Shown: positions 21,642 to 45,408 of the stretch, one piece after another | Numbering within the stretch: the stretch's first letter is position 1 | How the letters are laid out: every line of letters starts with the position of its first letter | Origin: Methylomusa anaerophila | GTDB lineage: Bacteria > Bacillota > Negativicutes > Sporomusales > Sporomusaceae | Direction of reading: 5' to 3' | NCBI RefSeq assembly: GCF_003966895.1 | Contig: NZ_AP018449.1 | Coordinates: 2,807,501 to 2,871,500 of the forward strand | DNA: 64,000 bases | Notes under the pieces: generated by a model | Seen by the model: only the letters and a program-made list of their open reading frames with translations | What the model was told of the DNA's origin: nothing | The model's database searches: none | Translations under genes and position numbers: made by a program

Positions 21642-22559
21642 TTACAGGCGGGATAGATCGAAGGGAGTCTCCTGATAGACGTAATAATTGAGCCAGTTGG
21701 AAAAGAGCAGGTTGGCAGTGCTGCGCCATATGACAACCGGCGTTTGCGCGGGGTCATCGTTGGGGTAGTAGTTGCAGGGGACGTGAATGGGCAGTCCCTG
21801 GGCAACATCACGGTCATACTCGGCTTTGAGGGTAAGGGGGTCGTATTCGGAATGACCGGTGATGAAAATTTGCCTGCCTTTCCGGTCGGCTACGGCGTAA
21901 ACCCCGGCCATAGCCGATTGGGCGAGTATACGTACGGCGGGGACTTTTTCGATGTCTTCCCGTCTGATCTCAGTATGTCTGGAATGGGGTACATAGAAGA
22001 TATCGTCAAGACCGCGAAATAGTTTCTCCTCTTCAATAACACATTTTTGGTGAGGAAAAATACCGAACATTTTTTGCGGCAGATCATGCTTGGGAATGCC
22101 GTAGTGATAGTACAGGCCGGCCTGGGCCCCCCAGCATATATGGAAGGTTGAGTAAACATGGGTTTTGCTCCATTCCATAATCTTGCAGAGTTCATCCCAG
22201 TAAGCTACCTTCTCAAAAGGCATTTGCTCAACCGGCGCGCCGGTAATGATCATACCGTCATACTTTTTGGATTTCACAGCGTCAAATGTTTCGTAAAATT
22301 TAATCAGGTGTTCCTGGGGAGTGTTCGTGGGCGAATAAGTGGCAGTATATATAAAATCGACATCCACTTGTAAAGGGGAGTTGCCTAATAGACGCAACAA
22401 CTGGGTTTCAGTAGTAATTTTCGTAGGCATAAGATTTAACAATAGTATTTTAAGCGGGCGGATATCTTGGGAATATGCCCGGTTTTCATACATGACAAAA
22501 ATGTTTTCGCCTTCCAGGATGTTAGTAGCAGGCAGGTTGTTAGGAATTTTTATCGGCAT
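21642..22559 (-). CDS. metA: Homoserine O-acetyltransferase of MetA type
   Basis: 305 residues, full-length MetA family. The catalytic cysteine is in [15 protein letters not shown], and the histidine and glutamate of the triad are in [13 protein letters not shown]. At residue 111 the sequence reads GAPVE; glutamate here is reported to favour acetyl-CoA, while glycine gives the E. coli succinyl type. The downstream enzyme in the window is MetY, which uses O-acetylhomoserine, so acetyltransferase activity fits. It is preceded by a SAM-I riboswitch and terminator on the minus strand, so methionine sufficiency should shut it off. Confidence 0.92.
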
Positions 22560-22628: not shown

Positions 22629-22731
22629 CTCTTATCTGTCAGGATTTCTCCTGCTGGAATTAGCACCACTGCAGTTGCCTGCCGGTTGCCGGGTGTCATC
22701 AGGCCAGTCCCTCGACCACTCTGGATAAGAG
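22629..22731 (-). ncRNA. SAM-I riboswitch upstream of metA
   Basis: Reads on the minus strand from CTCTTATC at 22731 down to GATAAGAG at 22629. It has the canonical SAM-I parts: P1 CTCTTATC/GATAAGAG, the AGAGTGGTCGAGGGACTGGC segment, CCGATGACACCCGGCAACC and a GGTGCTAATTCC core. It should bind S-adenosylmethionine and terminate metA transcription. It is nearly identical to the plus-strand copy at 45306-45408. Confidence 0.95.
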
Positions 22732-23063
22732 ATTTATTCACTTGAATGTGATTTTAGCATGGAAAACATTGAGTGTCAATAACCATTACAGTGAGGTTGT
22801 GTTCATTCTGTGATAATGTCACCTTGTTCTATCTTTGGTTTCGGACTGTCCCCTGACTCATTTAGCTGGACCTGCCGCAGTTTCAAATTTAATACAAATT
22901 TAACATTTATATGTGCTAAACTGGACGAAAGTCCTATAGAAACAGGATTAAAACTTTGGTACTATAAATAAAGTGATATTAGGATAATATTGGAATACCT
23001 GTTATAAACAACGAATTCATGCATAATACGCTAAAATTCATTATAATTGCCAGGGAGGCGAGC
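22732..23063. other. Intergenic region between metA leader and tpsB remnant
   Basis: About 330 bases without a credible gene. It presumably holds the metA promoter (minus strand, near the riboswitch 5' end) and the promoter of the TPS locus. I see no strong repeat or known RNA in it. Confidence 0.5.
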
Positions 23064-23492
23064 ATGAACAAGCAAGGATGCTGTGATGCAATCACCAGAA
23101 TTTTAAAATCAAATAAGGCCAGGATGGCCCTGGCGGCAATCATCCTATTTTCTGTCACCGCTAGGCCAAAGAAATCGACCCTGCCGACAAGGAAGAACTG
23201 AAACGGCGTTCCCAAGCGGAAGCCTTGGAACGACAACATAGGGGACAGGAGAAAGACGTATTTCTACAACAGCAGTCGCCGGCTGAGAAAACAACCGTTT
23301 TACCCCGAGGAACCCAGTTTCCTCATCAACGACCTTGTCCTCGAAGGAGACAAGGTCGATCACTTTCCGTGGGCCAAAAACATCCTCAAGCCATATCGCG
23401 GCCAAGTCAAGAACGGCAGCTATGACGTCTTCGCCGGCCGGCTACAAAACCGAAAATCTTACCTTTGGCTTACCCTTACCTATCCAATGTGA
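23064..23492 (+). pseudogene. Decayed TpsB/FhaC-type outer-membrane transporter (ends only)
   Basis: An ATG with GGGAGG six bases upstream opens a signal-peptide-like frame (ARMALAAIILFSVTA). After a frameshift it continues as EIDPADKEELKRRSQAEALE and EKDVFLQQQ. After a second shift it reads SFLINDLVLEGDKV and WAKNILKPYRG, which resembles the start of a POTRA domain in TpsB proteins. It then jumps to SYDVFAGRL and WLTLTYPM with a stop; YDVFAG is typical of the very C terminus of TpsB barrels. So the 5' and 3' ends survive and the central ~1.3 kb (rest of POTRA and nearly all the barrel) is missing. The adjacent exoprotein would need another TpsB encoded elsewhere. Confidence 0.75.
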
Positions 23493-23518
23493 TCACGAAA
23501 AATGAGAGGTGAAAAACA

Positions 23519-26500
23519 ATGCTTTGCCTGCGAACCAATAATCAAACCACCACCCAACGGCGCCAAAGCCTAAAAAAATGGCTGATCTGGCTCACCGCCA
23601 TCCTGCAGCTGTGCCAGCCAACCCTGGCCGGCGCCAGCGCCATCGTCGACAAAAGCGCGCCGGGAAGCAACCGGCCCTACGTAGAATTCACCGCCAACGG
23701 CCTGCCAGTCGTGCAAATCACCACCCCGTCAGCGGCCGGCGTATCCCGCAACATCTTTCAGCAATTCGACGTCTTTTCCCAGGGACTCATCCTAAACAAC
23801 TCCCGCGACATAGTAAGTACCCAACTGGCCGGCTATATCGCCGGCAACCCTTTTCTCCTCAAAGGATCAGCCCGAATTATCTTAAGCGAAGTCAGCGGGC
23901 CCCAAGCCAGCCATCTGAACGGCTATACCGAAATCGCCGGCCAAAAAGCCGAATTCATTCTGGCCAACCCTAACGGCATCTTTGTAAATGGAGCCGGTTT
24001 TATCAACACCAGCCACGCCACCCTCACCACCGGCGCCCCGGTATTCGGCGGCGACGGCAGCCTAAGCGCCTTCCGGGTAAGCGGCGGCCAAATCAGCATA
24101 GACGGCGCCGGACTCAACGGCGGCGACACCGACCGGGTGGACCTCATCAGCCGGGCGGTAACCGCCAATGCCGGTATCTGGACCAACGAACTCAACGTCG
24201 TCACCGGTGCCAATGAAGTAAAATATAACTCGTTAACCGCAGCCAACATTACCCCTGACAGCAACAAACCCGCCGTAGCCATAGACGTAGGCGCCTTAGG
24301 CGGCATGTACGCCAACAAAATCTACCTTGTCGGCACCGAACAAGGGGTAGGGGTGAACAGCCAGGGAATAATTTCGGCAATCACCGGCGACCTAACCGTC
24401 ACCGGTGAAGGCAAAGTCACCCTTGCCGGCAACACAACCGCCGGGGAAAATATCTATATTTCCGCGCAAGGCGGCCTCGATACCCAGGACCTAGTATACG
24501 CCGCAAAAAGCGCCAACCTTACCACCCCGGCCGGACTCACCAACGCCGGACTCATCGCCGCCGGAGAGCACACCACCCTTACCGCAGCTGCCGTTGACTC
24601 AACCGGCACAATCGGCGCCGGCATAAATAGCGACGGAACCATCGCCCCAAACGGCGACATCAACATCACAACAACCGGCAGCACAAAAGCCGGCGGGCAG
24701 AACACAGCCGCCGGTAATCTAACCATTCGGGCCGCAGCCGTCGACCTAAGCGGCGCCAACACCTACGCCGGTCAAAACATAAACCTCACAGCCCGGACGG
24801 GGGACATTGCCAACACCGGCGGGACAATACAAGCCATGGGCAGCCTTAACGCCAAAGCTAACGGAACACTCAGCAACGACCAAAACCCCGTCGGGACCAA
24901 AGGACAGCTCCAGGCCGACCAAATCACCATAACCGCCGGATCCGTCAGCAACATGGGCGGCGTAATCAGCCAAACCGGAACAAAAACCACCCTGATAACA
25001 GCTCAAGGCACGATCAACAACTCCCGGGGAGAAATTGGGACTCACGGCGACAAACTGACAATAGAGGCCGCAGAACTAAATAACACTACAGGGAAAATCA
25101 TCCATGCCGGTGGACAAGAATTAACCATCCGGACAAGCGGCGACACGATAAACACCAGCGGACAAATCGGCGCCAACGGCGCCAACCTGACAATCGAAGC
25201 TCAAAACCTCATCAACACCAAAGGGTCAATCGTCCATGCCGGCGCCCAAAACCTAACACTCAAGACGGCAGGAGACACCCTCAACACCGGGGGACAAATT
25301 GACACAAACGGACAACTTACCCTCACCGCCCAAAACCTTGACAACTCCAGCGGCCAAATCAACAGCCAAAAAGACATGGACATCCGCCTCGGTTCCGGTC
25401 TAATCAATGAAACCGGTGTCATTCGCGGCGGCAGCGCGGTAAAAATAGCGGCTGCCGACACCGTCCACAACCGGCGGGGAACCATCGAGGCCGGCCAGGG
25501 ACTGAATATAAGAGCCCGATCCCTGCAAAATGAAAACGGTCGGGTGGCCAACCTGGATAGCGGCCTGTTGACCATCACCGTCCGTCAGGACATCAACAAT
25601 CAAGGCGGCCAAATCGGTAGCAACGGAAAGGCCGAGCTCACAGCCAATACAGTCAACAATCAAAGCGGCACCCTCACCGCCCAAAACAACCTAACCATCC
25701 GGGTAGGGGCAAAACTGGACAGTAATGAGGCCAGCACCATCGCCGCCGGCGGCGACCTGACCATCAACAGCGGCGGCGCCATCAACCTGGCCGGCTCAAC
25801 CACCGCCAATCAAAACATCACCCTCACCGCCCAAGGCGACATTCATAACCAAGGTACCGTCTACGCCGGCCGAGATGCAACCCTTGCCGCCCAAGGCGCC
25901 CTCACCAATACCGGCACCCTTGCCGCCCAAAACAACATAACCATCAATGTAGGGGAAAGACTGGACAGTAATGAGGCCAGCACCATCGCTGCCGGCGGCG
26001 CCCTTGCCATCAACAGCGGCGGCGTCATCAACCTGGCCGGCGCGACCACCGCCAATCAAAACATCACCCTCGCCGCCCAAGGCGATATAAATAACCAAGG
26101 TACCGTCTATGCCGGCCAAGATGCTGCCATTGGCGCCGGCGGCGCCCTCACCAATACCGGCGCCATCACCGCCGGCGGCAACACCGGCATTACGGCCAAC
26201 ACCGTATCCTCCAGCGGTACCCTTGGGGCAGGCGTTACCCGTGAAGGTAAACTTGGCGGCAGTGGCAATCTCACGGTGGTTGCCCAAGACACCCTCACCG
26301 CCACCGGCCAAAACCTAGCCGCCGGCAATATGCTCCTGCAAGGAACAGCTATTAACCTGACCGGGGCCGTGAACCAGGCAGGAGGCAGTGCCGCCCTTCG
26401 CGCCACAACAGGAGACATCACCCATACGGGCGCAAGCCTGGATGTGGGCGACAAGCTTGACATCAGCGCTGCCAAGACCTTTAATAATGACAAAAATGCC

Positions 26501-29500
26501 GGGGGAACCGCCGGACAAATCCAGGCGGGTCAAGTAACCATCACCGCCGCCAACATAGCCAACCGAGGCGGCAGCATCCTGCAGATCGGCAGCGAAGAAG
26601 CCGCCATAACCGCAGCCCATACCCTCGACAACAGCGGCGGTAAAATTGCCGCCAATGGCGCCGCCAAGATAAAAGTCGGCGAACTTATCAACCAGGGAGG
26701 CAGCATCCAAACCTCCGGGCTTGATAATAACAATCTGGTCCTTGATGCCCGCGGCAGCATCAACAACAGCCTATATAACGGACAGGCGGGAATCATCAGT
26801 GCCGGCGGCAGCACAACCATAACCGCCGACAGCCTCAACAACAGCCAGGGACAAATTACCGCCGGTCAAACCTTAAGCGCAACAGTTACCCAAGACATCA
26901 CCAATACGCAAGGACTACTGGCGGCCAACCAAAACGCCGCCGTCAGCGCCGGCCGGATCCACAACACCCAGGGCACCATCGCCGCCGTACAGGGGCAAGC
27001 CGACGTCACCGCGGCCACCGGTATTCTTGATAACACGGCAGGGCGGGTGGAAGCCCAAAAGGAAACCCGCATCTTCGCCATTGGCTTAAACAACACAGAA
27101 GGTGTCATCCTCGGCGGCAGCCTGGACGTCAACACCAATAACCAACGGACTGACAACACGCGCGGCAGTATCGCCGCCGCCGGCCCGGCCACCATCCGCA
27201 GCGGCATCTTTATCAACGAAGCCGGCCTGGTTCAGGCAGCAGGCGATCTCATCCTCGACACCGGCGGGCAAACCCTTGCCAACACCAATTCCGGCGCCAC
27301 CGGCGGTATCATTGGCCGCGGCAGCGTCAACCTGCTCACCGGCAGCCTTACCAACCAGGCCGGCTACATTTACGGCGAAAATACACTTACAGTAAAAAGC
27401 GCCGACATCAACAATAGCCAGGGCGGTCTGCTGACCAGCGCCGGGGCAATGGACATCACCGCCGCCTCGCTAAACAACCAGGGCGGACAAATCCAGGCGG
27501 GTCAAGTAACCATAACCGCCGCCGACATAGCCAACCGAGGCGGCAGCATCCTGCAGACCGGCAGCGAAGAAGCCGCCATAACCGCAGCCCATACCCTCGA
27601 CAACAGCGGCGGCAAGATTGCCGCCAATGGCGCCGCCAAGATAAAAGTCGGCGAACTTATCAACCAGGGAGGCAGCATCCAAACCTCCGGGCTTGATAAT
27701 AACAATCTGGTCCTTGATGCCCGCGGCAGCATCAACAACAGCCTATATAACGGACAGGCGGGAATCATCAGTGCCGGCGGCAGCACAACCATAACCGCCG
27801 ACAGCCTCAACAACAGCCAGGGACAAATTACCGCCGGTCAAACCTTAAGCGCAACGGTTACCCAAGACATCACCAATACGCAAGGACTACTGGCGGCCAA
27901 CCAAAACGTCGCCGTCAGCGCCGGCCGGATCCACAACACCCAGGGTACCATCGCCGCCGTACAGGGGCAAGCCGACGTCACCGCAACCACCGGTATTCTT
28001 GATAACACGGCAGGGCGGGTGGAAGCCCAAAAGGAAACCCGCATCTTCGCCATTGGCTTAAACAACACAGAAGGTGTCATCCTCGGCGGCAGCCTGGACG
28101 TCAACACCAATAACCAACGGACTGACAACACGCGCGGCAGTATCGCCGCCGCCGGCCCGGCCACCATCCGCAGCGGCATCTTTATCAACGAAGCCGGCCT
28201 GGTTCAGGCAGCAGGCGATCTCATCCTCGACACCGGCGGGCAAACCCTTGCCAACACCAATTCCGGCGCCACCGGCGGTATCATTGGCCGCGGCAGCGTC
28301 AACCTGCTCACCGGCAGCCTTACCAACCAGGCCGGCTACATTTACGGCGAAAATACACTTACAGTAAAAAGCGCCGACATCAACAATAGCCAGGGCGGTC
28401 TGCTGACCAGCGCCGGGGCAATGGACATCACCGCCGCCTCGCTAAACAACCAGGGCGGACAAATCCAGGCCCTGGGCAATGTAGGCATCCAACTCGGCGG
28501 CACATTCCGCAATGCGCAAAGCCTGGTGCGGGCCGGTCAAACCCTCACCATCCGCGCCGCCGCCATCGACAACACCAATACCCAGGAGACAAACCAGGGG
28601 ATCGAAGGCCGGTCGGTAAATCTTACCGCCGCCCAAATCGACAACAGCCAGGGCGCCATCCGGGCCAACGAAACCTTGACCCTGACCGGCAGCGGTCAGA
28701 TCAACAACAGCCAGGGCTTGGTCTCTGCCGGAAAAACCCTTACCCTGCAAGATGCCAACCTGGACAACAAGACCCTGCAGATCAACAACAGCGGCGGAAC
28801 ATTGATCGCCGGGCAGCAACTCAATATCAACAGCGCCGGCCTCACAGGCGACGGCAAAATCGTAAGCCAGGGCGATCTTACCATTAAACTCACCCAAGAC
28901 TATACCCACACCGGTGAACTGGAAGCCAACGGCGACCTCAAACTGGAAACCGCCGGCGCCTTCACCAACAAAACAGCCCTTCAAGCCGGGAACAGCCTTA
29001 CCGTCATCGCCGGCAGCATCGACAACACCGTAGACGGTCAAATCAGCGGCAAAAACACCGCCGTTGCCGCCGATACCCTTACCAACCGGGGACTCATTGA
29101 CGGCGGCACAACCCTGATCGAGGCAGGAACCCTCAACAATCTGGGAACCGGCCGTATCTACGGCGACCAACTGGCCATTGAGGCCAATACCCTCACCAAC
29201 GATGTGGAAAATGGCACGGCGCCCGCCATCGCCGCCCGCAATCGCCTGGATATAGGCGCCCAGACCCTTGTTAACCGGGAACACGCCCTCATCTACAGTG
29301 ACGGCGACATGGCTGTCGGGGGCAGCCTGGCGGCAGACAAAACAGCAACCGGCCAGGCAGCCGTAGTCAACAACAACAGCGCCACCATAGAAGCCCGGGG
29401 CAATCTCAGCCTCTTTAGCCATGAAATCAACAACACCAACGAACACTTCAGCACCGTCATAGAAAAAACCCAGGAACAACAAATGGAAGAATACCAAGGT

Positions 29501-32500
29501 AGCGGATCTCCTAACCGCTACCTTGCCGGCACCCCCGGCGTCTACATCTATAACGACGAATCCGACCATCTCCAAACTCCCGCAGGCGGATTTGAGAGCT
29601 GGCTGGCCTACCGTTACACCCGGACGACAATGGAAAGCAAAGTAGAAACCTCCGACCCCGGTCAAATCTTATCCGGCGGCGCCATGCAAATCATCGCCGA
29701 CACCGTCACCAACGACAAGAGCAAAATCATCGCCGGCGGCACCATAAGCGGCAGCATTGGCGCCTTAAACAACATCGGCTTCGAGGGACAGCGCATCACT
29801 ACCGACAGCGGCACCGTCACCTCCTACTGGCGCAACCACCGCCGCGGCCGCGATGATACCGGCAGCAGTTCAACCGGGTATAACCCGCCAGACGTGATTC
29901 AGAATATCACACTGGCGGAAGGGGAGTATCAAGAAAACGCGGCCCCATCACTAGACAGCGCCAAACCAGGCGACCGATCAAGCGGCAGCGTCCAGCAAAC
30001 GGCAGCCGGAGCAAATCCTGCCGGTGTCGCCACTAACGGCGGCGCTGCCGTCACCGCCGGCGTCACTGCCGTCGCAGCCGGCGCCACAGCCGGCACCGCA
30101 GTCGTCACACCCGGCGGCGCTGCCGTCCTACCCGGCGTCCAGGTTACGACCCCTACCGGCAAAATCATCCGCACGGGCGGAGTTAACATCCAGCTAGCCA
30201 ACAACAGCCTCTTTACAATCAACAAAAACCCCAACAACAACTTCCTGTTCGGGGTAGACCCCCAATTCGCCAACAACCAGCAATGGCTTTCCTCCGAATA
30301 CCTGCTCAACAACCTTTCCTTCCAACGCGGCGACCCGCCCCCACGGTTAGGCGACGGTTTCTATGAACAAAAAATGATCCAGCAACAAGTAACACAACTC
30401 ACCGGCAGGCGTTTCCTCAAAGACTTCACCAACGACCAGGACCAGTACCAAGCCCTGCTGAACAACGCCTTAGCCTATGCCCAAGACCACCAATTGACCG
30501 TTGGCACACCCCTCACCGAAGACCAGATGGCCGAACTGACAAGCGACCTGGTCTGGCTGGTGGAAAAAGACGTGATCCTGCCGGACGGCCAAACAACGCG
30601 GGCGCTGGTACCCCAACTCTACGTGTGCGCCCTCAAAGAAGGCGACCTAGCTGCCTCAGGAGCTTTGCTCTCCGGCTATGACGTAAAGCTCAACCTCAGC
30701 GGCGACCTCACCAACAGCGGCGGCATCGCCGGCAACAACCTGGTCGCTCTGACCGCCGAAAACATCCGCAACCTCGGCGGCAGCATCCGGGGCAACAACC
30801 TGGACCTGCAAGCCCGAACCGACCTTGACAACATCGGCGGGCGGCTGGAAGCCGTCAGCAGCCTTACCGCCCAGGCCGGCAGAGACCTCAATCTCGTCAC
30901 CACCACCACGGCCGCGGCCAACGACAACGGCAGCCGCACCGTCATCGACCGAATCGCCGGCCTCTACGTCACCGGCAGCAACGGGCTGCTCCTGGCCAGC
31001 GCCCAACGCAACGTCAACCTCACCGCCGCCGAAATCAACAACAGCGGCACCGACAGCCAAACCACCCTTGCCGCCGGGCAGGACCTCAACCTCGGCACCG
31101 TCGGGCAAAGCGGCAGCAACCGCCTGGTCTGGGATGGCAACAACCGGCGCAGCGACAGCTTCAGCAGCGAAACCGGCACCACCATCCAAACCCAGGGCAG
31201 CACCGAACTGCAAGCCGGCAATGACCTCAACGCCAGAGCCGCCTACCTGGACAGCCAAGGCCCCCTCACCCTCACCGCCGGCCGCGACGTCAACCTGACA
31301 GCAGGCCAGAGCAGCGACAATGTGGAGGAAAACCATCAGCACAAAGGCACCAGCGGCTTCTTCTCCAGCACCACCTACACCACCCACGACCAAGTTCAGG
31401 AAACCCTAAGCCAGGGCACCACCCTTTCGGCCGACAGCATCAGTGTCCAAACCGGCCGGGACATCAACATCAGCGGCAGCAACGTAGCCGCCACCCATGA
31501 CGTAACCCTGCAGGCCGGCAACGACATTACCCTTACCGCCGCCCAACAAACCTCCCAGGAAGAACACATGCGCCAGCAAAAAACCTCCGGCCTCTTCAGC
31601 AGCGGCGGCCTCGGCTTCACCATCGGCAGCAAAAGCGAAAAAACCACCCTCGATCAACAAACCATGGAGCAAGCCGGCAGCACCATCGGCTCCATCGACG
31701 GCAACGTCAACCTCATTGCCGGCAACCAAGTCAACAGCGCCGGGACTACAATTATCAGCGGCCAGGACACCAACATCAGCGGCAAAAATGTCACCATCGA
31801 CAACACAGTAAACACCTACGACAGCCAGTACAAATACGAATTCAAGCAAAGCGGCCTGAGTGTATCCTTAGGCGGCGGCGTAATCGATGCTGCCACGGGT
31901 GCTTATAACGACATCCAGCGCTCGGGTCAGGTACAGGATGACCGGCTTAAAACGCTGTATGAGTACAAAGCCGTTAAAGATCTTGAGAAACTGAAGGACT
32001 TCAAAGGCAACCTGACAAAAGGAGTGGGTGTCAACGTCAGCATTGGCAGCACAACAATCACATCCGAGCAAAACACCCATGTGGAAAGCGTCAACCCATC
32101 CAACATCAGCGCCGGCGGCAACGTCAACATCACCGCCACCGACGGTAATGTCAACCTCAAAGGGACCAAAATCACTGCGACTGAGGTCACCTTGGACGCC
32201 GAAAACGACATCAACCTCGACGCCGCCCAAAACCAACAACAGATTGATGGCAAAACCAGCTCCTCCTCCTGGTCTTTAGGCGGCACCATCGGTGTAGGCT
32301 ACTCCGGTAGCTTCGGCAGCAGTAGCGGCAAAAAAAACGGCAACGCTGTGACCAATACCGGCAGCGTCATTGATGCCAGCGGCACAGTAACCCTAAAATC
32401 CGGCAACGACACCAACATCACCGGTTCCCAGGTAATAGGCGAAAAAGTAAAAGCCGACATCGGCGGCAACCTCAACATCGCCAGCCTGCAGGACAGTGAT

Positions 32501-34282
32501 GACTACGCGGCGAACAATCAAAGCATCGGCTTTGGTTTCGGCACCGGCAAGATCAGCGGGACAACGGGCTCCTTCAATACCGGCAAGACCAACTCCAACT
32601 ATGACAGTGTCACTGGTCAGGCAGGGATTTTTGCCGGGGCGGAAGGCTTTGATATCTACGTGGAGAAAAATACCGACCTGAAGGGTGCGGTGATTAGCAG
32701 CGAGGCTACGCCGGATAAGAATAAGCTCAGTACCGATACGCTGACATTCTCCAATCTGGAGAATAGAGCGAAGTATCTATCAAGTAGTATTGGAGTTAAT
32801 TACAACAGCAAGCTTACTCCAGGGATGAAATTGGGTGATTTGGGTCTAACTCCCAATATTGGCGTTACTGTTAGTGGTAATGCAGATAGTACCACAAAAT
32901 CGGCTATATCGCCTGGAACTATTGAAGTTAGGAGCAATCCTAATGCCGATCTGTCCAATCTCAGCCGTGATCCGAGCGGTGCATTAAATGCGTTAGGCAA
33001 GATTTTTGATAAGAAAACAGTACAAGAGAAGCAAGAATTAGCAAATCTATTTGTTCAAGAAGCCTCTACCGCCATTGGCGATTTAGCAGATGCACAACTG
33101 AAAAAAGCAATTAATGATGCAGCTAAATATAAAGATACAAATCCAGCGGCATATAATGAAGCCTTACAACAAATTGCCTTATGGAAAGAAGGCGGAACAA
33201 ACAAGGTATTGTTAGATACTTTGATGGGTGGTATTATAGCCAGCATTGGCGGTGGAAATATTGGCGCGGGTGCGCTTAGCGGTGGATTAAATGGATTGCT
33301 CCAAGGAGAATTATCAAAGATTACAGATCCCGCAGCGCGTCAATGGGCAAGCTTGATACTTGGAGCAGCAGCATCAAAGATAGTCGGCGGAGATGCTTTT
33401 ACAGGCGGTAGCATAGCTAGTGGCGATACGAAGTATAACTCGCTAGATCATAGTGAGCAAATACAGTTCGCAGCAGATTTAACACTGGCATTTGTTGGTA
33501 AGGGCAAAACAACCGAAGAAGTAAAGAACAATGTTAAAGACGTGATTCAAAAATGGATAAATATAGATGCTGAAACAAATCCGAACCTAAAAGATACTGA
33601 TCCACCAACTATATCGTTATTAAAAGCTGCTGCAGATGTACTAGGTCTAGGAGATACTTGGAAATTCGATAGTAATGAAAGTTTGACTAATAATTTAAAT
33701 GCCTTCAAGCAGGCTCTGGATTTTCAGAAAAAAATTATTTTTGAATTTAAAGTTGGGGACTATGGTATCAGGATTATAGACGACAGAGATGATCAACAGA
33801 AAAAAGCCTATGCCCTTACAGAAGAATGGGCTCGTGGTTTAATATCTATGGGTTTCTTTGTTGGTAGTGGCGGTAAGGCAAAAGATATAGTTATTGGCGC
33901 AGCTAGAGCTGAAGAAGTAGCCACAGGAGCTAAAGTATTTTGGTCAGGTGGAGACGCTGCAAAGAATATAGCGGCATCTTGGGCAAAAGCAGGTGGTGCA
34001 ACAACACTTGAAATGACGCCGGAAGGCATTGCACTGGCAGAAAAAACAAAAGAAATGCCTTGGTCACAGGCAAAGCCTCTTTGGGAGGAACTATCTAGAG
34101 ACTTTGCAAAATCAGCTAGTGGCGAAGTACATGTATTCCAGAAAGCAGAAGGAGTTAGCTTGCAAAGCATATGGGGAACTGTTGAGTATAAAGAATTGAT
34201 GGCAAATCCTAATGTTACAAAATTTACTTTTCACGTACTAATGGGTGATGGCTCTATACGGGCGTTTACAATTGCTAAATAA
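23519..34282 (+). CDS. Giant TpsA/CdiA-like filamentous haemagglutinin exoprotein with C-terminal toxin
   Basis: 3587 residues. A signal-peptide-like N terminus (LIWLTAILQLCQPTLAGASA) precedes a TPS secretion domain at about residues 40-290, with FILANPNGIFVNGAGFINTS and HATLTTG. A very long beta-helical repeat region follows (NITLTAQGDI-type repeats), including a 972-base tandem duplication. Near residues 2650-3080 are late FHA modules also found in the two orphan cassettes. At about 3080 base composition falls visibly and a pre-toxin segment (ELSKITDPAARQWAS, then VGGDAFTGGS) leads to the C-terminal domain. That domain contains VFWSGGDAAKNIAASWAKAG and SGEVHVFQ, a pattern I associate with polymorphic-toxin C termini; its activity cannot be read from sequence. 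The usual VENN motif is absent. The gene next door is a likely immunity gene. Confidence 0.9.
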   Translation: MLCLRTNNQTTTQRRQSLKKWLIWLTAILQLCQPTLAGASAIVDKSAPGSNRPYVEFTANGLPVVQITTPSAAGVSRNIFQQFDVFSQGLILNNSRDIVSTQLAGYIAGNPFLLKGSARIILSEVSGPQASHLNGYTEIAGQKAEFILANPNGIFVNGAGFINTSHATLTTGAPVFGGDGSLSAFRVSGGQISIDGAGLNGGDTDRVDLISRAVTANAGIWTNELNVVTGANEVKYNSLTAANITPDSNKPAVAIDVGALGGMYANKIYLVGTEQGVGVNSQGIISAITGDLTVTGEGKVTLAGNTTAGENIYISAQGGLDTQDLVYAAKSANLTTPAGLTNAGLIAAGEHTTLTAAAVDSTGTIGAGINSDGTIAPNGDINITTTGSTKAGGQNTAAGNLTIRAAAVDLSGANTYAGQNINLTARTGDIANTGGTIQAMGSLNAKANGTLSNDQNPVGTKGQLQADQITITAGSVSNMGGVISQTGTKTTLITAQGTINNSRGEIGTHGDKLTIEAAELNNTTGKIIHAGGQELTIRTSGDTINTSGQIGANGANLTIEAQNLINTKGSIVHAGAQNLTLKTAGDTLNTGGQIDTNGQLTLTAQNLDNSSGQINSQKDMDIRLGSGLINETGVIRGGSAVKIAAADTVHNRRGTIEAGQGLNIRARSLQNENGRVANLDSGLLTITVRQDINNQGGQIGSNGKAELTANTVNNQSGTLTAQNNLTIRVGAKLDSNEASTIAAGGDLTINSGGAINLAGSTTANQNITLTAQGDIHNQGTVYAGRDATLAAQGALTNTGTLAAQNNITINVGERLDSNEASTIAAGGALAINSGGVINLAGATTANQNITLAAQGDINNQGTVYAGQDAAIGAGGALTNTGAITAGGNTGITANTVSSSGTLGAGVTREGKLGGSGNLTVVAQDTLTATGQNLAAGNMLLQGTAINLTGAVNQAGGSAALRATTGDITHTGASLDVGDKLDISAAKTFNNDKNAGGTAGQIQAGQVTITAANIANRGGSILQIGSEEAAITAAHTLDNSGGKIAANGAAKIKVGELINQGGSIQTSGLDNNNLVLDARGSINNSLYNGQAGIISAGGSTTITADSLNNSQGQITAGQTLSATVTQDITNTQGLLAANQNAAVSAGRIHNTQGTIAAVQGQADVTAATGILDNTAGRVEAQKETRIFAIGLNNTEGVILGGSLDVNTNNQRTDNTRGSIAAAGPATIRSGIFINEAGLVQAAGDLILDTGGQTLANTNSGATGGIIGRGSVNLLTGSLTNQAGYIYGENTLTVKSADINNSQGGLLTSAGAMDITAASLNNQGGQIQAGQVTITAADIANRGGSILQTGSEEAAITAAHTLDNSGGKIAANGAAKIKVGELINQGGSIQTSGLDNNNLVLDARGSINNSLYNGQAGIISAGGSTTITADSLNNSQGQITAGQTLSATVTQDITNTQGLLAANQNVAVSAGRIHNTQGTIAAVQGQADVTATTGILDNTAGRVEAQKETRIFAIGLNNTEGVILGGSLDVNTNNQRTDNTRGSIAAAGPATIRSGIFINEAGLVQAAGDLILDTGGQTLANTNSGATGGIIGRGSVNLLTGSLTNQAGYIYGENTLTVKSADINNSQGGLLTSAGAMDITAASLNNQGGQIQALGNVGIQLGGTFRNAQSLVRAGQTLTIRAAAIDNTNTQETNQGIEGRSVNLTAAQIDNSQGAIRANETLTLTGSGQINNSQGLVSAGKTLTLQDANLDNKTLQINNSGGTLIAGQQLNINSAGLTGDGKIVSQGDLTIKLTQDYTHTGELEANGDLKLETAGAFTNKTALQAGNSLTVIAGSIDNTVDGQISGKNTAVAADTLTNRGLIDGGTTLIEAGTLNNLGTGRIYGDQLAIEANTLTNDVENGTAPAIAARNRLDIGAQTLVNREHALIYSDGDMAVGGSLAADKTATGQAAVVNNNSATIEARGNLSLFSHEINNTNEHFSTVIEKTQEQQMEEYQGSGSPNRYLAGTPGVYIYNDESDHLQTPAGGFESWLAYRYTRTTMESKVETSDPGQILSGGAMQIIADTVTNDKSKIIAGGTISGSIGALNNIGFEGQRITTDSGTVTSYWRNHRRGRDDTGSSSTGYNPPDVIQNITLAEGEYQENAAPSLDSAKPGDRSSGSVQQTAAGANPAGVATNGGAAVTAGVTAVAAGATAGTAVVTPGGAAVLPGVQVTTPTGKIIRTGGVNIQLANNSLFTINKNPNNNFLFGVDPQFANNQQWLSSEYLLNNLSFQRGDPPPRLGDGFYEQKMIQQQVTQLTGRRFLKDFTNDQDQYQALLNNALAYAQDHQLTVGTPLTEDQMAELTSDLVWLVEKDVILPDGQTTRALVPQLYVCALKEGDLAASGALLSGYDVKLNLSGDLTNSGGIAGNNLVALTAENIRNLGGSIRGNNLDLQARTDLDNIGGRLEAVSSLTAQAGRDLNLVTTTTAAANDNGSRTVIDRIAGLYVTGSNGLLLASAQRNVNLTAAEINNSGTDSQTTLAAGQDLNLGTVGQSGSNRLVWDGNNRRSDSFSSETGTTIQTQGSTELQAGNDLNARAAYLDSQGPLTLTAGRDVNLTAGQSSDNVEENHQHKGTSGFFSSTTYTTHDQVQETLSQGTTLSADSISVQTGRDINISGSNVAATHDVTLQAGNDITLTAAQQTSQEEHMRQQKTSGLFSSGGLGFTIGSKSEKTTLDQQTMEQAGSTIGSIDGNVNLIAGNQVNSAGTTIISGQDTNISGKNVTIDNTVNTYDSQYKYEFKQSGLSVSLGGGVIDAATGAYNDIQRSGQVQDDRLKTLYEYKAVKDLEKLKDFKGNLTKGVGVNVSIGSTTITSEQNTHVESVNPSNISAGGNVNITATDGNVNLKGTKITATEVTLDAENDINLDAAQNQQQIDGKTSSSSWSLGGTIGVGYSGSFGSSSGKKNGNAVTNTGSVIDASGTVTLKSGNDTNITGSQVIGEKVKADIGGNLNIASLQDSDDYAANNQSIGFGFGTGKISGTTGSFNTGKTNSNYDSVTGQAGIFAGAEGFDIYVEKNTDLKGAVISSEATPDKNKLSTDTLTFSNLENRAKYLSSSIGVNYNSKLTPGMKLGDLGLTPNIGVTVSGNADSTTKSAISPGTIEVRSNPNADLSNLSRDPSGALNALGKIFDKKTVQEKQELANLFVQEASTAIGDLADAQLKKAINDAAKYKDTNPAAYNEALQQIALWKEGGTNKVLLDTLMGGIIASIGGGNIGAGALSGGLNGLLQGELSKITDPAARQWASLILGAAASKIVGGDAFTGGSIASGDTKYNSLDHSEQIQFAADLTLAFVGKGKTTEEVKNNVKDVIQKWINIDAETNPNLKDTDPPTISLLKAAADVLGLGDTWKFDSNESLTNNLNAFKQALDFQKKIIFEFKVGDYGIRIIDDRDDQQKKAYALTEEWARGLISMGFFVGSGGKAKDIVIGAARAEEVATGAKVFWSGGDAAKNIAASWAKAGGATTLEMTPEGIALAEKTKEMPWSQAKPLWEELSRDFAKSASGEVHVFQKAEGVSLQSIWGTVEYKELMANPNVTKFTFHVLMGDGSIRAFTIAK
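25672..26155 (+). repeat. Two ~240-base tandem units inside the exoprotein gene
   Basis: Two adjacent units encode the similar segments LDSNEASTIAAGG, TTANQNITL and NNQGTVYAG (or its HNQGTVYAG form). They diverge more than the 972-base duplication, so they are an older expansion of the beta-helix. Confidence 0.6.
26513..28456 (+). repeat. Near-identical 972-base tandem duplication in the exoprotein gene
   Basis: Copy A 26513-27484 and copy B 27485-28456 are each 972 bases (324 codons), differ at only a handful of positions (for example QIGS/QTGS, ANIAN/ADIAN, NAA/NVA, TAA/TTA), and keep the frame. The first bases of the unit recur at 28457 (GGACAAATCCAGGC), marking the likely crossover homology. 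It is a recent duplication lengthening the beta-helical stalk, and a candidate for copy-number variation or assembly error. Confidence 0.9.
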
Positions 34283-34318: not shown

Positions 34319-34822
34319 ATGAGTGTTGATGTTAGCAAAAAGTATTTTCTCATGAGTTTTAAATTTGATAAATGTAAGCCAGAAGATTTTGGGTTAACTG
34401 TTGTGTCTCAAGAAGCTCCGGAGACTTATGTTGATTCAAATGAAAACTCACGTTGGGTTAAAAAGGAGATGTATGATTTTGGATGGGGAAATGAATGTGG
34501 TTTTATGAGAATTCCGCAACTAGAGTTTGAAGATCTTTGGGAATTACTCATAAACTCAAGTATTCAAGAAAATAAATATGGTGCTGCATACATAATTGAG
34601 AAAGAATATGCATGCAAATTGATGAATCATCTATTAGACATTTTAAATAAGTCTGACTTTACTTACATCAGTTCATTCAAAGAAGCGGCTGAAATACTTA
34701 ATTTAAAGCAAGTCAGAAATAGGTGTGAAACTATTGGCAAAACGTATCAGGAAGTTGAAAATGATTACAATAACTGGAAGTATATCGCTAACAAGGTTTT
34801 AGAATTGATATCTAATAAGTAA
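34319..34822 (+). CDS. Putative CDI immunity protein for the exoprotein toxin
   Basis: 167 residues, acidic and soluble, with no signal peptide or membrane span. It starts 36 bases after the exoprotein stop and is AT-rich like the toxin end. Position immediately 3' of a CdiA-type toxin is the standard place for CdiI, which blocks the cognate toxin in the producing cell. I recognise no family in the sequence; residues WVKKEMYDFGWGNECGFMRI are the most distinctive stretch. A GGGAT-like ribosome site precedes the ATG. A REP-like hairpin follows 15 bases after the stop. Confidence 0.6.
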   Translation: MSVDVSKKYFLMSFKFDKCKPEDFGLTVVSQEAPETYVDSNENSRWVKKEMYDFGWGNECGFMRIPQLEFEDLWELLINSSIQENKYGAAYIIEKEYACKLMNHLLDILNKSDFTYISSFKEAAEILNLKQVRNRCETIGKTYQEVENDYNNWKYIANKVLELISNK

Positions 34823-34904: not shown

Positions 34905-36872
34905 AAAGCCATCTGTGGCTACCAAACTTACCAGGACCTTAAACAAATCGGTAAACAATTTAAAGACGGTTTCACTGCCAAAGACCTGAGCACAGGTACC
35001 GGTGTTAGCGTCAGCATCGGCAGCAGCCAAATGACCGCCGAACAAACAACCCACGCCGAAACCGTCAACCCGTCCAACATCAACGCCGGCGGCAACGTCA
35101 ACATCACCGCCACCGACGGGGATATCAACCTGATAGCGACAAACATCCATGCCATCGACGTCCTGCTCGACGCCAAGCAAAACCTCAACCTCGACGCCGC
35201 CCAAAACCAACAACAGATCGACGGCAAAACCAGCTCCTCCTCCTGGTCCTTGGGAGCATCCTTCGGCCTTGACGGCAACTTTACCGGCCTGACCGGCGGC
35301 TTCGGCTCCGGCCACGGCACGGAAAACGGCAACACGGTAACCCATACCGGCAGCGTCATCGACGCCGCCGGCACCGTAACCCTCAAATCCGGCAACGACA
35401 CCAACATTATCGGTTCCCAGGTCAAAGGCGACAAAGTTGTGGCCGACATCGGCGGCAACCTCAACCTCGCCAGCACGCAGGACAGTGATGACTACGCGGC
35501 GAACAATCAAAGCACCGGCATTGGTTTCGGCACCGGCAAGATCAGCGGTACAACGGGCTCCTTCAATACCGGCAAGACCAACTCCAACTATGACAGTGTC
35601 ACCGGTCAGGCAGGGATTTTTGCCGGGGCGGAAGGCTTTGATATTTATGTGGGGAAGAATACCGACCTGAAGGGTGCGGTCATTGCGAGTGATGCTACGC
35701 CGGATAAGAATAAGCTGAGTACCGATACACTGACTTACTCGGATATTCAAAATAAGGCAGAGTATAGCGCAAGCAGTGTTGGAGTTGGCTACGCTGCAGG
35801 CAAAGACGCCAATGGCAAAGATGTTGCCGATAAAGACAAAGGATTAATACCCAATATTGGGGTAACAGCCAGCGGAGAAGCCTCCAGTACCACAAAATCG
35901 GCTATTTCTCTGGGAACTATTGATATTCGCAGCAATCCCACCCAGGATATCTCTAATCTAAACCGCACACCGGAAGGCTCCATAAATGCGCTAGGTAAGA
36001 TTTTTGACAAACAGACTGTTAAAGAACAACAAGAATTGGCAAATTTATTTGGCCAAGAAGCATTTAAGGCTATTGGTAATCTTGGATTAACTGAAGGTAG
36101 TCCTGAAAAAGTGTTTCTTGATGCGTTTGCTGGCGGACTAATGGCTCAACTTGGCGGAGGAAGTTTTGCTTCTGGCGCTGCTGGTGCAGGATTTAATCAA
36201 CTTGTTCAGCTGGAATTAGCTAAGATTACAGATCCTGCATTACATCAATGGGCTAGTGCGGTTGTAGGTATCGCAGCCGCTAGTGTTGTTGGCGGTAATG
36301 CACAGACCGGAGCAAGTACGGCGGTTAGTGAGACAAGGAATAATTGGTTCTGGGGTGCACATGTACTTGCAAGGACAGCTGCAATTTCAGCATTTAGATA
36401 TTTATCTAGTACACCTGCAGGAAGGGCGGCACTTCAAAAATTAGAAATTTATTCAGAAGAAGCGTTGATTGCCAGTGAAGAAATGATGGCAAAAGTTGTG
36501 AATGAAGCGAATGCACTCATGACACGTTTTGGAATACCTGGGCGTGTTCAATCCCGTATTAACTTAATAACTGGAGATTTGGAGGCTGGATGGGAACATG
36601 TATTATCCAGACATTTTAATACTTCGGTTAATGCTTCTCAATTTACTGTAGCACCAGAGGAACTGCAAGGCATTCTTCAAAGTGAACAAGTCATTGGGAC
36701 TCCTATACTTAGAATAGTGTTAAGTGATCAAGGTCCTAGATTCTTACGAGAAGTAACCTTAGATAAAATAATAGGGATTGATAAATTTTCTAATCTACCG
36801 ACTTCAGTTATGACTGTATTAACCGATTTACAAGGTAATTTGGTAACAGCTACACCGGGAGTGATAAAATGA
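34905..36872 (+). pseudogene. Orphan cdiA-CT cassette 1 (FHA end plus EndoU-like toxin)
   Basis: The frame is open from the REP hairpin (QTYQDLKQIGKQFKDGFTAK, upstream of an internal ATG at 35031) with no start codon or ribosome site at its head, as expected of an orphan cdiA-CT cassette. About 430 codons match the late FHA region of the main exoprotein. The pre-toxin ELAKITDPALHQWAS then leads into a new C-terminal domain with GWEHVLSRHFN, SQFTVAPEELQGILQ and SVMTVLTDLQGNLVTATPG, a pattern resembling EndoU/BECR-type RNase toxins. Activity is inferred. It may be silent until recombined onto the full-length gene. Its stop overlaps the next start (ATGA). Confidence 0.7.
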
Positions 36873-37231
36873 AGCTCATTGGAAGCCTAATAGAACAAAA
36901 CGCTAGGGCAATCATGGCTATTACGCATGATTCTTTGTTTAAGGGACATAACCCCAGGTTGTTTAATGTACTAAAAACTTTATTTCCAGAATTGAAAACT
37001 GTATATTTTCTTGCGCATACACCTGAACAAGGCGAAGACATTTATGTGCTTCTTGTTGATGCAACTCATGTCGTTTCAGTTGAATTAGACCGTTATGACG
37101 AAAATGTCGAACCTATAGTACGAATAAGATCGCTCAAAGAGTATAAGCGAAAGCTAAGTAAAACGAAACAAATTGAATTAGCCGTTGCTATGGATTTATC
37201 TCAAAAAGATTTATCATCAAGTTCGAGTTAG
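36869..37231 (+). CDS. Putative immunity protein of orphan cassette 1
   Basis: 120 residues, soluble. The ATG overlaps the stop of the orphan toxin (ATGA), so the two would be translationally coupled. The sequence (FPELKTVYFLAHTPEQGEDI, VVSVELDRYD) matches no family I can name with confidence, but position makes it the cognate immunity protein. Keeping it expressed would protect against sister cells carrying the same toxin. A strong palindromic terminator follows at 37287. Confidence 0.6.
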   Translation: MKLIGSLIEQNARAIMAITHDSLFKGHNPRLFNVLKTLFPELKTVYFLAHTPEQGEDIYVLLVDATHVVSVELDRYDENVEPIVRIRSLKEYKRKLSKTKQIELAVAMDLSQKDLSSSSS

Positions 37232-37712: not shown

Positions 37713-37750
37713 AGAGAGGTCAACGGACGTAAAAATCCGCTGACCTCTCT
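37713..37750. terminator. Palindromic terminator after the small membrane protein
   Basis: AGAGAGGTCAACGGA pairs with TCCGCTGACCTCTCT around CGTAAAAA; T and C residues follow. It is the second copy of the cassette terminator. Confidence 0.7.
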
Positions 37751-37834
37751 CTTTCTCTCAGGTGTCGTCTGGTGAACAAACAACAACTGGATAATATTAC
37801 CTATTGATAATCCCTGAAAATTAAATCTGGTGAA

Positions 37835-38002
37835 TCAGAAGGACTTAGACTCATTACTGCCACAAAACGGACAACTATCTCCATAGCCATTACCGGAGCA
37901 GTTGCCACAATACGTACTACCACAATCCTTACATTTCATCAATGCTCCAAAACAAGGTGCATCTGAACTACAATTTGGACATTTCCTCACGTTATCATAC
38001 AT
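37835..38002 (-). CDS. 55-residue zinc-ribbon protein
   Basis: A short minus-strand gene with GGAGG before its ATG. Four CxxC pairs (CPNC, CKDC, CGNC, CPFC) in 55 residues indicate a double zinc ribbon; the rest is rich in S, G and D. Its target is unknown. It lies between toxin cassettes, antisense to them, and is too small and cysteine-regular to be chance. Proteins of this type often sit next to toxin or secretion genes, but no function is claimed here. Confidence 0.65.
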   Translation of the reverse strand: MYDNVRKCPNCSSDAPCFGALMKCKDCGSTYCGNCSGNGYGDSCPFCGSNESKSF

Positions 38003-38167
38003 CAATAAAACCTCCTTAAAAATAATAATTTTAATATATCACCTAGCGGTGATGACGAAAATGGAGTTTTCGTCGCAGAGGTTCTTTTCATGTAATTTAT
38101 CATAAATCCAGTAAAATCAATATCTCATTGAATCTGACCTTAAATAATAATCAAATATGCATCAGTT

Positions 38168-38202
38168 AATCATCAGAGTTAGTTTTGTGACCTCTGATGA
38201 TT
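38168..38202 (+). terminator. Intrinsic terminator in AT-rich gap
   Basis: AATCATCAGAG (38168-38178) pairs with CTCTGATGATT (38192-38202), followed by TTTTATT. No complete gene ends just before it on the plus strand. Confidence 0.6.
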
Positions 38203-38622
38203 TTTTATTAACGGGTACAATAAAATATATTACCGGTGAAAATCATCCAACAGAGATCACCCGATAAATTTATGACAAACATCTGTCACATGTCACGTTT
38301 CACGGATAAAAAAATATTTTATAAAAATCACCAAAATGATGTTACACTTTCCCAGTTTTGTAATATTTAAATATTAAATTTAAAAAACGGAAAAACATAT
38401 ATTAATAGTTACACCAGCCGCCAATATATAAGGATTTTAAATAATCACAGTAGTTCCCAAAACATAAAAGGAACTAATAAAGTATCCAGTTCCTTCATAG
38501 TTCTCTTGTAGTTCCTCAGTTGTTCCACTTATTTTATAGAGAAACTTTGTCTTCAAAATTCATGGAACCACAAAATAATAATTATTTACGCACCACAATA
38601 CAAGCAGAGCCATATTTCATGA

Positions 38623-38649: not shown

Positions 38650-40474
38650 ATGAAATTAGCAACATAGTTGGCACCAACGATGTCGGTCTTACCGCCACCG
38701 ACGGCAACATCAACATCACCGCCGCCGATGAAACCGGCAGCGACGAACACTACCGCCAAGAAAAAATGTCAGGCCTCTTCAGCAGCGGCGGCCTCGGCTT
38801 CACCATCGGCAGCAAAAGCGAAAAAACCACCCTCGATCAACAAACCATGGAGCAAGCCGGCAGCACCATCGGCTCCATCGAAGGCAACGTCAACCTCATT
38901 GCCGGCAACCAAGTCAACAGCGCCGGGACTACAATTATCAGCGGCCAGGACACCAACATCAGCGGCAAAAACGTCACCATCGACAATACAGTAAACACCT
39001 ACGACAGCCAGTACAAATACGAATTCAAGCAAAGCGGCCTGAGTGTATCCTTAGGCGGCGGCGTAATCGATGCTGCCACGGGTGCTTATAACGACATCCA
39101 GCGCTCGGGTCAGGTACAGGATGACCGGCTTAAAACGCTGTATGAGTACAAAGCCGTTAAAGATCTTGAGAAACTGAAGGACTTCAAAGGCAACCTGACA
39201 AAAGGAGTGGGTGTCAACGTCAGCATTGGCAGCACAACAATCACATCCGAGCAAAACACCCATGTGGAAAGCGTCAACCCATCCAACATCAGCGCCGGCG
39301 GCAACGTCAACATCACCGCCACCGACGGGGATATCAACCTCAAGGGAACCAAGATTACCGCGACGGATGTCACCCTGGACGCCAAAAACGACATCAACCT
39401 GGACGCCGCCCAAAACCAACAACAGATCGACGGCAAAACCAGCTCCTCCTCCTGGTCCTTGGGAGCATCCTTCGGCCTTGACGGCAACTTTACCGGCCTG
39501 ACCGGCGGCTTCGGCTCCGGCCGCGGCACGGAAAACGGCAACACGGTAACCCATACCGGCAGCGTCATTGACGCCGCCGGCACCGTAACCCTCAAATCCG
39601 GCAACGACACCAACATTATTGGTTCACAAGTAAAAGGCGACAAAGTTGTGGCCAACATCGGCGGCAACCTCAACCTCGCCAGCCTGCAGGACAGCGACGA
39701 CTACACGGCGAACAATCAAAGTACTGGCATTGGTTTCGGCACCGGCAAGATCAGCGGTACAACCGGCTCCTTCAATACCGGCAAAACCAACTCCAACTAT
39801 GACAGTGTCACTGGTCAGGCAGGGATCTTCGCCGGGGCGGAAGGCTTTGATATTTATGTGGGGAAGAATACCGACCTGAAAGGCGCGGTGATTGCTAGTG
39901 AGGCGGAGGCAGTAAAGAATGCCCTCTCGACAGGTACGCTGACCTTCGCCAATATGGAGAACAGAGCAAAGTATTCGTCAAGCAGCATTGGTGTCAACTA
40001 CAACGCAGGTAAAGACGCCAATGGTAAGTCTGTAGCCAAAAAAGATCAGGGATTGACTCCTAACATTAGTGTTACAGCCAGTGGGGATGCCTCAAGTACA
40101 ACCCAATCAGCTATATCACCAGGAACTATCGAAGTTAGGAGCAATCCTAATCAGGATTTGAGCGGATTAAGTCGTGACCCGGAAGGAGCCGTCAATGCAT
40201 TAGGTAAGATCTTTGATAAAAAGACGGTCCAGGAGAAACAGGAATTAGCGCAAGTATTTGGTGAAGTAGCTTATCAAAAAATCGGGGATTTAGCAATACA
40301 AAATGGTTGGGTCCAGGGTGGTTCAGAAACTGCTGCGTTGCATGCTTTAGTTGGCGGCATAATGTCACAAATGGGCGGTGGTACTTTTGCTTCAGGAGCA
40401 GTTGGAGCAGGGGTTAGTGAAGCAGTACAAAGTGAACTATCAAAAATTACGGACCCTGCATTACGTCAGTGGGC
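38650..40474 (+). pseudogene. Orphan cdiA-CT cassette 2, 5' part (interrupted by an IS630 element)
   Basis: The frame opens right after the REP hairpin (SNIVGTNDVGLTATDGNINI) without a start site; an internal ATG at 38766 begins MSGLFSSGGLGFTIG. About 600 codons match late FHA modules of the main exoprotein almost word for word, up to ELSKITDPALRQWAS. There an IS630-type element splits the gene at a CTAG. Joining across the insertion restores the frame (RQWASAIVGAAAS). The cassette is headless and also carries an in-frame stop further on, so it cannot act as it stands. Confidence 0.8.
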
Positions 40475-40476
40475 TA

Positions 40477-41764
40477 GTGTATCGACACGTTGATATTTAT
40501 AGTAAACATCAACGAGGGGAAACGTAATATTACTGTTGTTGGATCTCAAATTTGGGATACAAAGATATAAGTTTTATTCTGGCATTATCCAGTCTAAAAT
40601 GCCAGTTAACTCTCGATACTTTCTGGTTGCGTTCATTTTTCCAGCACTGCAACTCTTCCTTTAAACGGGATATAGTATCAATCCTTCGGGAAAGGCACTG
40701 TCTGGTCATAACATTCAGCTCAATTTCTGCTATGTTAAGCCAGCTTCCATGTTTGGGTGTGTAATGCAGTTCTAAGCGTTTTATAATTCTTCGAGCTTCT
40801 TGCGGCGCAAAGACTTTATAAAGGGACGCTGGCCTATGTGTGTTCAGGTTGTCCATTACCAGAACGATTTTATCCATATCGGGATACATGACATCCACAA
40901 GATATTTGATTTCTTCCGCCCAGTCTGCAGCAGTACGCCGTTCGCGTACACTGACATGTCTTGTACCACTAAGAGGTTCCGTGAAGACAAATATACTGCA
41001 GGTTCCTTCCCTTACGTATTCCGAATCTATCTTTTGAGAAGCACCGGGACGCATTGGCAGCGGTTTTCGTTCATCTCCCAGAAGCTGGTAAGGTTTTTCA
41101 TCCATGCAGACAACGGGACGCATTGGATTATAGGGTGTTTCATATACCTCTAGAATGTCTTCCATGCAGGCTACGAATTCGGCGTTTTCTTTTGGTGGGA
41201 TACACCAGTACTCATTGAGGTGAGGCTGAAGTTCGTTTTTTTAAAGTGCGACGGATGGCTTCCCGGCTTACAGGTGTATCAAGCACAACTCGTGATTTTT
41301 CTTCGAGCAGACGGAGAGTCCAGCGCACATGTCCGTCCGGTGCAGGCCCACAGGCAAGTTCAATGATTTTTGCTTCTGCGCGTCCGTCTACAAGGCGTCT
41401 GGCCTGATCGGAATTTACATTTCTCTTCAACTTCACAATAGCAGGGATGCCACCGGAAGCATATGTTTTTAGTGTATTATGAACGGTTGCGATACAGACA
41501 CCATTGGATTTTGCACACTGTTCATGGGTCAGAACTTTGCCATGAGCTTCATCCAGATCAATGAGAATTTGACATCTAGAGCGAATAGTATGAGAGGTAT
41601 TTTTCTTTCGAAGGAGTGATTGTAACTCCTTTAATTCAGAATCCGTCAGGATAACAATATATTTTTTAGGTCTAGCCATAGTTTCACCGCCGTTTTCTTT
41701 TAGCGTAACATAAAGCGGGATTATAAGCTAGCACTCTTGTTTAAATATCAATATGTCACTACAC
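40477..41764 (-). mobile_element. IS630-family insertion sequence in orphan cassette 2
   Basis: 1288 bases with ends GTGTATCGACACGTTGATA and GTGTAGTGACATATTGATA (right end read in reverse complement), 19-20 of the first 24 bases shared. It sits in a CTAG with duplicated TA (40475-40476 and 41765-41766), the signature of IS630/Tc1-mariner insertion. The transposase is encoded on the minus strand. Excision would restore the orphan toxin frame exactly. Confidence 0.9.
40530..41679 (-). pseudogene. IS630 transposase, frame broken in a poly-A run
   Basis: The first part (41679-41212) has the N-terminal helix-turn-helix (HEQCAKSNGVCIATVHNTLK) and the second (41165-40530) the DDE catalytic part (MDEKPYQLL, VMDNLNTHRP, YTPKHGSWLNIAEIELN). 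The reading frames join at seven A residues (41236-41242). One A fewer gives the continuous frame NELQPHLNEYWCIPPKENAE, as in intact relatives. Either this copy carries a one-base insertion or transcriptional slippage restores the frame; a sequencing error is also possible. Confidence 0.85.
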
Positions 41765-45305: not shown

Positions 45306-45408
45306 CTCTTATCCAGAGTGGTCGAGGGACTGGCCCGATGACACCCGGCAACCGGCAGGCAACTGCAGTGGTGCTAATTCCAGCAGGAGAAATCCTGGCA
45401 GATAAGAG
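45306..45408 (+). ncRNA. SAM-I riboswitch
   Basis: P1 CTCTTATC (45306-45313) and GATAAGAG (45401-45408) enclose the SAM-I core: AGAGTGGTCGAGGGACTGGC, CCGATGACACCCGGCAACC, GGTGCTAATTCC. A terminator follows at 45422-45445 and then a small YezD-like gene. It should turn transcription off when SAM is abundant. Nearly identical to the metA copy at 22629-22731, so one is likely a duplicate of the other. Confidence 0.95.

Follow-up and report, generated by a model that had tools for sequence, protein, structure and literature searches.

According to the literature cited in PMC10449530, arrangements similar to the one described here exist in Bordetella, in which the single TpsB FhaC serves FhaB, FhaL and FhaS, among them orphan ones, and in Neisseria meningitidis, in which TpsB2 serves five TpsA proteins, orphan ones included. 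The TPS domain is what TpsB proteins recognise, and the BcpB transporters of Burkholderia export non-cognate BcpA proteins at a TPS-domain identity of 76%, whereas no exchange took place in a pair with 46% (PMC10449530). Contact-dependent growth inhibition (CDI) genes from Methylomusa and from Sporomusaceae have been mentioned earlier, and a mutated cdiB is known from S. enterica S-1643 (PMC8510554). A literature search for a broken cdiB next to an intact cdiA yielded no close match. Here we describe such a locus in a 64,000-nucleotide stretch of the Methylomusa anaerophila genome (the window), in which the remains of a tpsB precede a giant open tpsA.

The tpsB remnant and the exoprotein gene behind it

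The locus comprises the following features.

22836-23063, forward strand: tpsB upstream (putative promoter) region, kept before the scar, from the alignment of three loci
23064-23491, forward strand: tpsB/cdiB remnant, from the alignment to the intact paralogue; exact twin at C1:1.2607 Mb
23519-34282, forward strand: giant exoprotein gene of tpsA/cdiA type, uninterrupted over 3,587 aa
33050-34282, forward strand: variable C-terminal region of the tpsA, where identity among the three copies in the genome drops and the ends are unrelated
34319-34822, forward strand: small ORF of 167 aa, by its position only a candidate for the immunity gene cdiI
35031-36872, forward strand: orphan cdiA-CT-like module, 613 aa, with Fil_haemagg_2 and DUF637
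36869-37231, forward strand: small ORF of 120 aa that, by its position only, may provide immunity to the 613-aa orphan module
38766-40493, forward strand: another orphan module of cdiA-CT type (575 aa), which shares 83-88% identity with the stems of tpsA in the other loci

Alignment of the remnant to its intact paralogue (L001 1390-3150, minus strand) showed that the start codon at 23064 is kept and that the signal peptide and the start of POTRA1 (about 114 codons) are fused to the last 38 or so codons, which end in a stop at about 23489-23491. Both parts match the paralogue far above chance, the 5' one at E = 1.5e-179 and the 3' one at E = 2e-22; the former differs from the intact tpsB by 8 substitutions in 332 bases. 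An in-frame deletion of 1,257 bp at about 23386-23397 removed residues 115-533 of 571, comprising most of POTRA1, POTRA2 and nearly the whole barrel. We looked for a clean microhomology at this deletion, and its two sides have just the imperfect motif CRCGGSCA in common. Three smaller deletions shift the frame: 7 bp at about 23163 and 2 bp at about 23304, which jointly restore it, and 20 bp at about 23440, which is flanked by CCGGCCGG repeats. Members of the TpsB/CdiB (ShlB/FhaC) family carry POTRA and a 16-strand barrel in one open frame; the remnant does not, and it is a pseudogene of this family rather than a member of it. The original prediction had described a tpsB down to its two ends with the barrel gone, next to a fully open exoprotein gene, and the alignment and the uninterrupted 3,587 codons at 23519-34282 agree with this description. 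Its span, 23064-23492, was right at the start and is corrected to 23491 at the end, and the two frameshifts that it counted become three.

The tpsA behind the remnant encodes a signal peptide (judged by eye), a TPS domain at residues 41-301 and haemagglutinin repeats, and is preceded by a ribosome-binding site of its own (GAGAGGTG). PF05860 (E = 5e-49 in the TPS domain), PF05594 and PF13332 all matched above cut-off, which places the protein in the TpsA family of two-partner-secretion exoproteins. Its C-terminal end (33734-34282, forward strand) resembles an ADP-ribosylcyclase toxin (PDB 9ro8, E = 1.3e-9), and a weak match to PF02267 (ADP-ribosyl cyclase) at the same end fell below the cut-off. 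The 167-aa ORF matched no Pfam or NCBIfam family above cut-off, and the comparison of the toxin and immunity ends with NCBIfam named none of them; the immunity function of the small downstream ORFs is one that we infer from their position only. Between the two orphan modules lies a region free of long ORFs (37717-38620); in both other loci, the DNA that follows the first small ORF contains stretches 86-88% identical to it.

Position 22836 is the left edge of the stretch common to the window and a related locus at 1.26 Mb, and from 22882 onwards the upstream region is also common to the locus with the intact tpsB. From the upstream region to the tpsA, we found no terminator-like site on the forward strand. 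The leader fold was unremarkable (z = -1.2), and the sole Rfam match in a search of the conserved upstream region for regulatory RNA was a SAM riboswitch on the opposite strand. The window holds two SAM (S-box) riboswitches, at 22629-22731 (reverse strand) and 45306-45408 (forward strand), the former of which precedes a divergent homoserine O-succinyltransferase gene (21642-22559, reverse strand). The kept upstream region may still serve as a promoter for the orphan tpsA genes.

An intact exporter at 388 kb and a second scar at 1.26 Mb

The original prediction had offered two explanations for the broken gene, a TpsB encoded elsewhere or a very recent loss, and had proposed a search of the genome for tpsB/fhaC homologues. 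We searched the whole genome, which consists of one contig (C1) of 4,781,198 bases, and found three intact TpsB genes, at 388 kb, 828 kb and 2,989 kb. The latter two are about 20% identical to the 388-kb TpsB, and each has its own, different tpsA. A fourth ShlB match (C1:2433 kb, 24 bits) was set aside, as its own sequence looks BamA-type. The 388-kb gene (C1:388485-390245, minus strand, 586 aa) is the sole intact TpsB of the remnant's class. With POTRA_2, POTRA_3 and ShlB above cut-off, an intact frame and an adjoining tpsA, it belongs to the TpsB/CdiB family, and among solved structures its best relative is CdiB (6wil). Directly after it follows a giant tpsA of 3,571 aa, whose TPS domain is 94% identical to that of the window protein. 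The first explanation thus has a concrete candidate, an intact TpsB nearly identical to the remnant, and the window gene corresponds to an orphan TpsA: no functional tpsB adjoins it, but the genome encodes a compatible TpsB at another site. Downstream of the intact locus (L005/L006, C1:372-400 kb), replication-initiator-like and tyrosine-recombinase-like ORFs at about C1:373.8-375.5 kb hint at a mobile element.

The remnant has a second copy at C1:1260206-1260888, and the gene that follows this copy is a third giant tpsA (3,475 aa). The scar at 23064-23518 is letter-for-letter identical in this copy, 1.57 Mb away, and the window and the 1.26-Mb locus have the stretch from 22836 to about 33042 in common at 98% identity, with different flanks on either side. 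These observations suggest a single deletion event, after which the stretch of upstream region, scar and tpsA would have been copied, or one locus would have overwritten the other. Long near-identical repeats of this kind, about 10 kb in length, do permit mis-assembly, and the scar might accordingly be an artefact of assembly or sequencing. We consider this extremely improbable, because the same remnant occurs twice, 1.57 Mb apart and between different flanks, because the scar shows substitutions besides deletions, and because all three genes of about 10.5 kb are frame-perfect, which means that indel errors are uncommon in the assembly.

Because the same scar is present at two loci, the deletion is older than the exchange between them, which speaks against the very recent loss offered by the original prediction. 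If the loss were very recent, the locus would be a dead gene heading for decay whose tpsA is still undamaged. A tpsA free of stops and frameshifts is what would be expected shortly after such a loss, and the identical scar at both loci does point to a recent exchange. However, the deletion predates that exchange, and the remnant shows four distinct deletions as well as 8 substitutions in 332 bases relative to the intact gene. Furthermore, the stems of the two orphan genes differ at about 189 sites, and the chance that none of these differences produced a stop under neutrality is about 0.013, a rough value because conversion and imported blocks violate independence. A very recent loss that left a dead gene is therefore very unlikely. 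None of 59 relatives was found to carry the remnant DNA, and the deletion is accordingly undatable by sister species.

Purifying pattern, gene conversion and C-terminal ends in the three tpsA genes

The TPS domains of the three tpsA genes are 94-95% identical in protein. Within this domain, dN/dS was 0.16-0.21, with an excess of synonymous changes both between the window and the 1.26-Mb copy (P = 8e-6) and between the window and the 388-kb copy (P = 1e-7). To judge by these substitutions, the pattern is a purifying one. In all three pairs, about 1,490 consecutive codons show no difference at all, synonymous sites included, which we read as recent gene conversion. Some of the differences in the TPS domain may have come as recombination blocks, in which case they could reflect selection in another lineage. 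The proposal that the window tpsA is under selection can therefore be retained in part: the low dN/dS in the TPS domain and the lack of stops favor it, but gene conversion with an intact copy, and not selection on the window gene itself, may be what has kept the frame open.

Beyond about position 33050 the three genes are unrelated: every copy ends in a C-terminal region of its own and is followed by a small ORF of its own. The window copy and the 1.26-Mb copy are also followed by tpsA-like orphan modules. As to the pre-toxin motif of CDI systems (VENN or an equivalent), DUF637 was above cut-off only in the orphan module of the window, and PT-VENN matched, below cut-off, only the 1.26-Mb copy and the orphan module behind it. 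A shared stem, unrelated toxin ends, small ORFs behind them and orphan CT modules are the features by which a CDI (CdiA/CdiI) system is recognised, and all three loci would thus be of CDI type. The CDI-type system, with its candidate immunity gene and orphan toxin modules, was absent from the original prediction.

These results are best explained, and we think it likely, if the window remnant is the scar of a cdiB deleted from one of three CDI-type loci, for which the single CdiB at 388 kb substitutes in trans. The three CdiA proteins, whose TPS domains are nearly identical, would all be recognised through these domains and exported by the 388-kb CdiB, and the orphan genes would be transcribed from the retained tpsB upstream region; one exporter would then probably serve three different toxins. 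As to the history, an ancestral cdiBAI locus would have been duplicated, and one copy would have lost the middle of its exporter gene, a loss that was tolerated since another copy remained. The stretch of upstream region, scar and cdiA would subsequently have been copied to a second locus, or have overwritten it, and gene conversion would have homogenised the stem while the toxin and immunity ends diversified. Export in trans is reasonable because TpsB proteins recognise the TPS domain and because CDI transporters export non-cognate toxins at 76% TPS identity. On the other hand, Burkholderia proteins with about 95% TPS identity are not always exported with equal efficiency (PMC10449530), which counts against the explanation.

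Alternatively, the two cdiA genes without a tpsB may be unexported, the 388-kb locus being the sole active weapon and the others silent stores of toxin ends and stem, or retained because of the immunity genes that accompany them. The three copies have evidently recombined with one another, and orphan modules behind cdi loci are regarded as reserve toxins or as a stock of immunity genes (PMC4927057, PMC5422565). Yet known orphan modules are without a 5' end, whereas the two genes here keep their upstream region, ribosome-binding site, signal peptide and an intact TPS domain with a dN/dS of about 0.2, and a store of toxin ends would need none of these parts. We therefore regard this alternative as improbable. 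If the three proteins are instead exported by the 388-kb CdiB, three toxins may compete for one exporter, and a single organism outside the Proteobacteria would allow direct tests of export in trans, of this competition and of gene conversion as a means of keeping TPS domains compatible.

Frequency in the Negativicutes and comparison with known systems

Among 160 genomes of the class, we found 78 TPS loci of this kind, 60 of which have a tpsB match immediately upstream and 7 downstream. Six of the remaining 11 are at contig ends (three of them in genome G052 and one each in G012, G068 and G158), two are the window and 1.26-Mb loci, and two (G041 and G142) showed no tpsB within the stretch examined; the last, in G145, was left out of closer examination. 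An orphan tpsA is thus unusual among these genomes.

Two independent parallels were observed. In G052, a draft genome with these loci at contig ends, unlike the window, three TPS regions are about 94% identical in DNA and there is one intact tpsB of that class. On its contig C49, the decayed 3' end of a tpsB lies directly before a tpsA (L145 40-191), with a local alignment score of 51 against 24.1 ± 3.2 for shuffled sequences, none of 1,000 of which reached 51. In G143 (L146 1988-2858), a tpsB consists of POTRA joined to the C terminus with the barrel deleted, as in the window; however, this remnant follows a cdiA-CT/cdiI-like pair and has no adjoining gene with a TPS domain. A tentative generalisation, which we consider doubtful, is that Negativicutes repeatedly build CDI arrays of one exporter and several warheads. 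Full-length cdiA genes would multiply as cassettes of upstream region, scar and cdiA that lack cdiB, with the scar as a travelling promoter leader, and gene conversion would hold the stem and TPS domain readable by one CdiB, so that only the toxin and immunity ends differ.

The islands of Neisseria meningitidis, with tpsB, tpsA and tpsC, and its orphan cdiA-CT/cdiI modules resemble the loci described here in their variable toxin ends with small ORFs behind each, their truncated orphan modules and the recombination between copies (PMC3848433, PMC4927057). However, tpsC and the orphan modules of Neisseria are without a 5' end, whereas the genome analysed here multiplies full-length tpsA genes. 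The Burkholderia cepacia complex is similar in that a strain carries several CDI toxins with similar TPS domains and BcpB transporters export non-cognate BcpA proteins; other transporters make up for the weak BcpB-1, and how a defective transporter may be compensated has been discussed for Burkholderia dolosa (PMC10449530). In Burkholderia, however, a full-length bcpB stands beside each toxin gene, whereas in the present genome two of three loci have only an identical tpsB scar and one exporter is left. The scar is evidence of a former partner of the orphans and preserves, as a natural case, the transition of a CDI locus from complete to orphan. For Bordetella FhaC and Neisseria TpsB2, the part of PMC10449530 that bears on them makes no claim of a duplicated deletion scar; conversely, export of several TpsA proteins is reported there for both systems, and here it is predicted from sequence. 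The sharing of one TpsB is therefore already known, and what is special to this genome is the preserved and duplicated scar together with the strong homogenisation of the stem.
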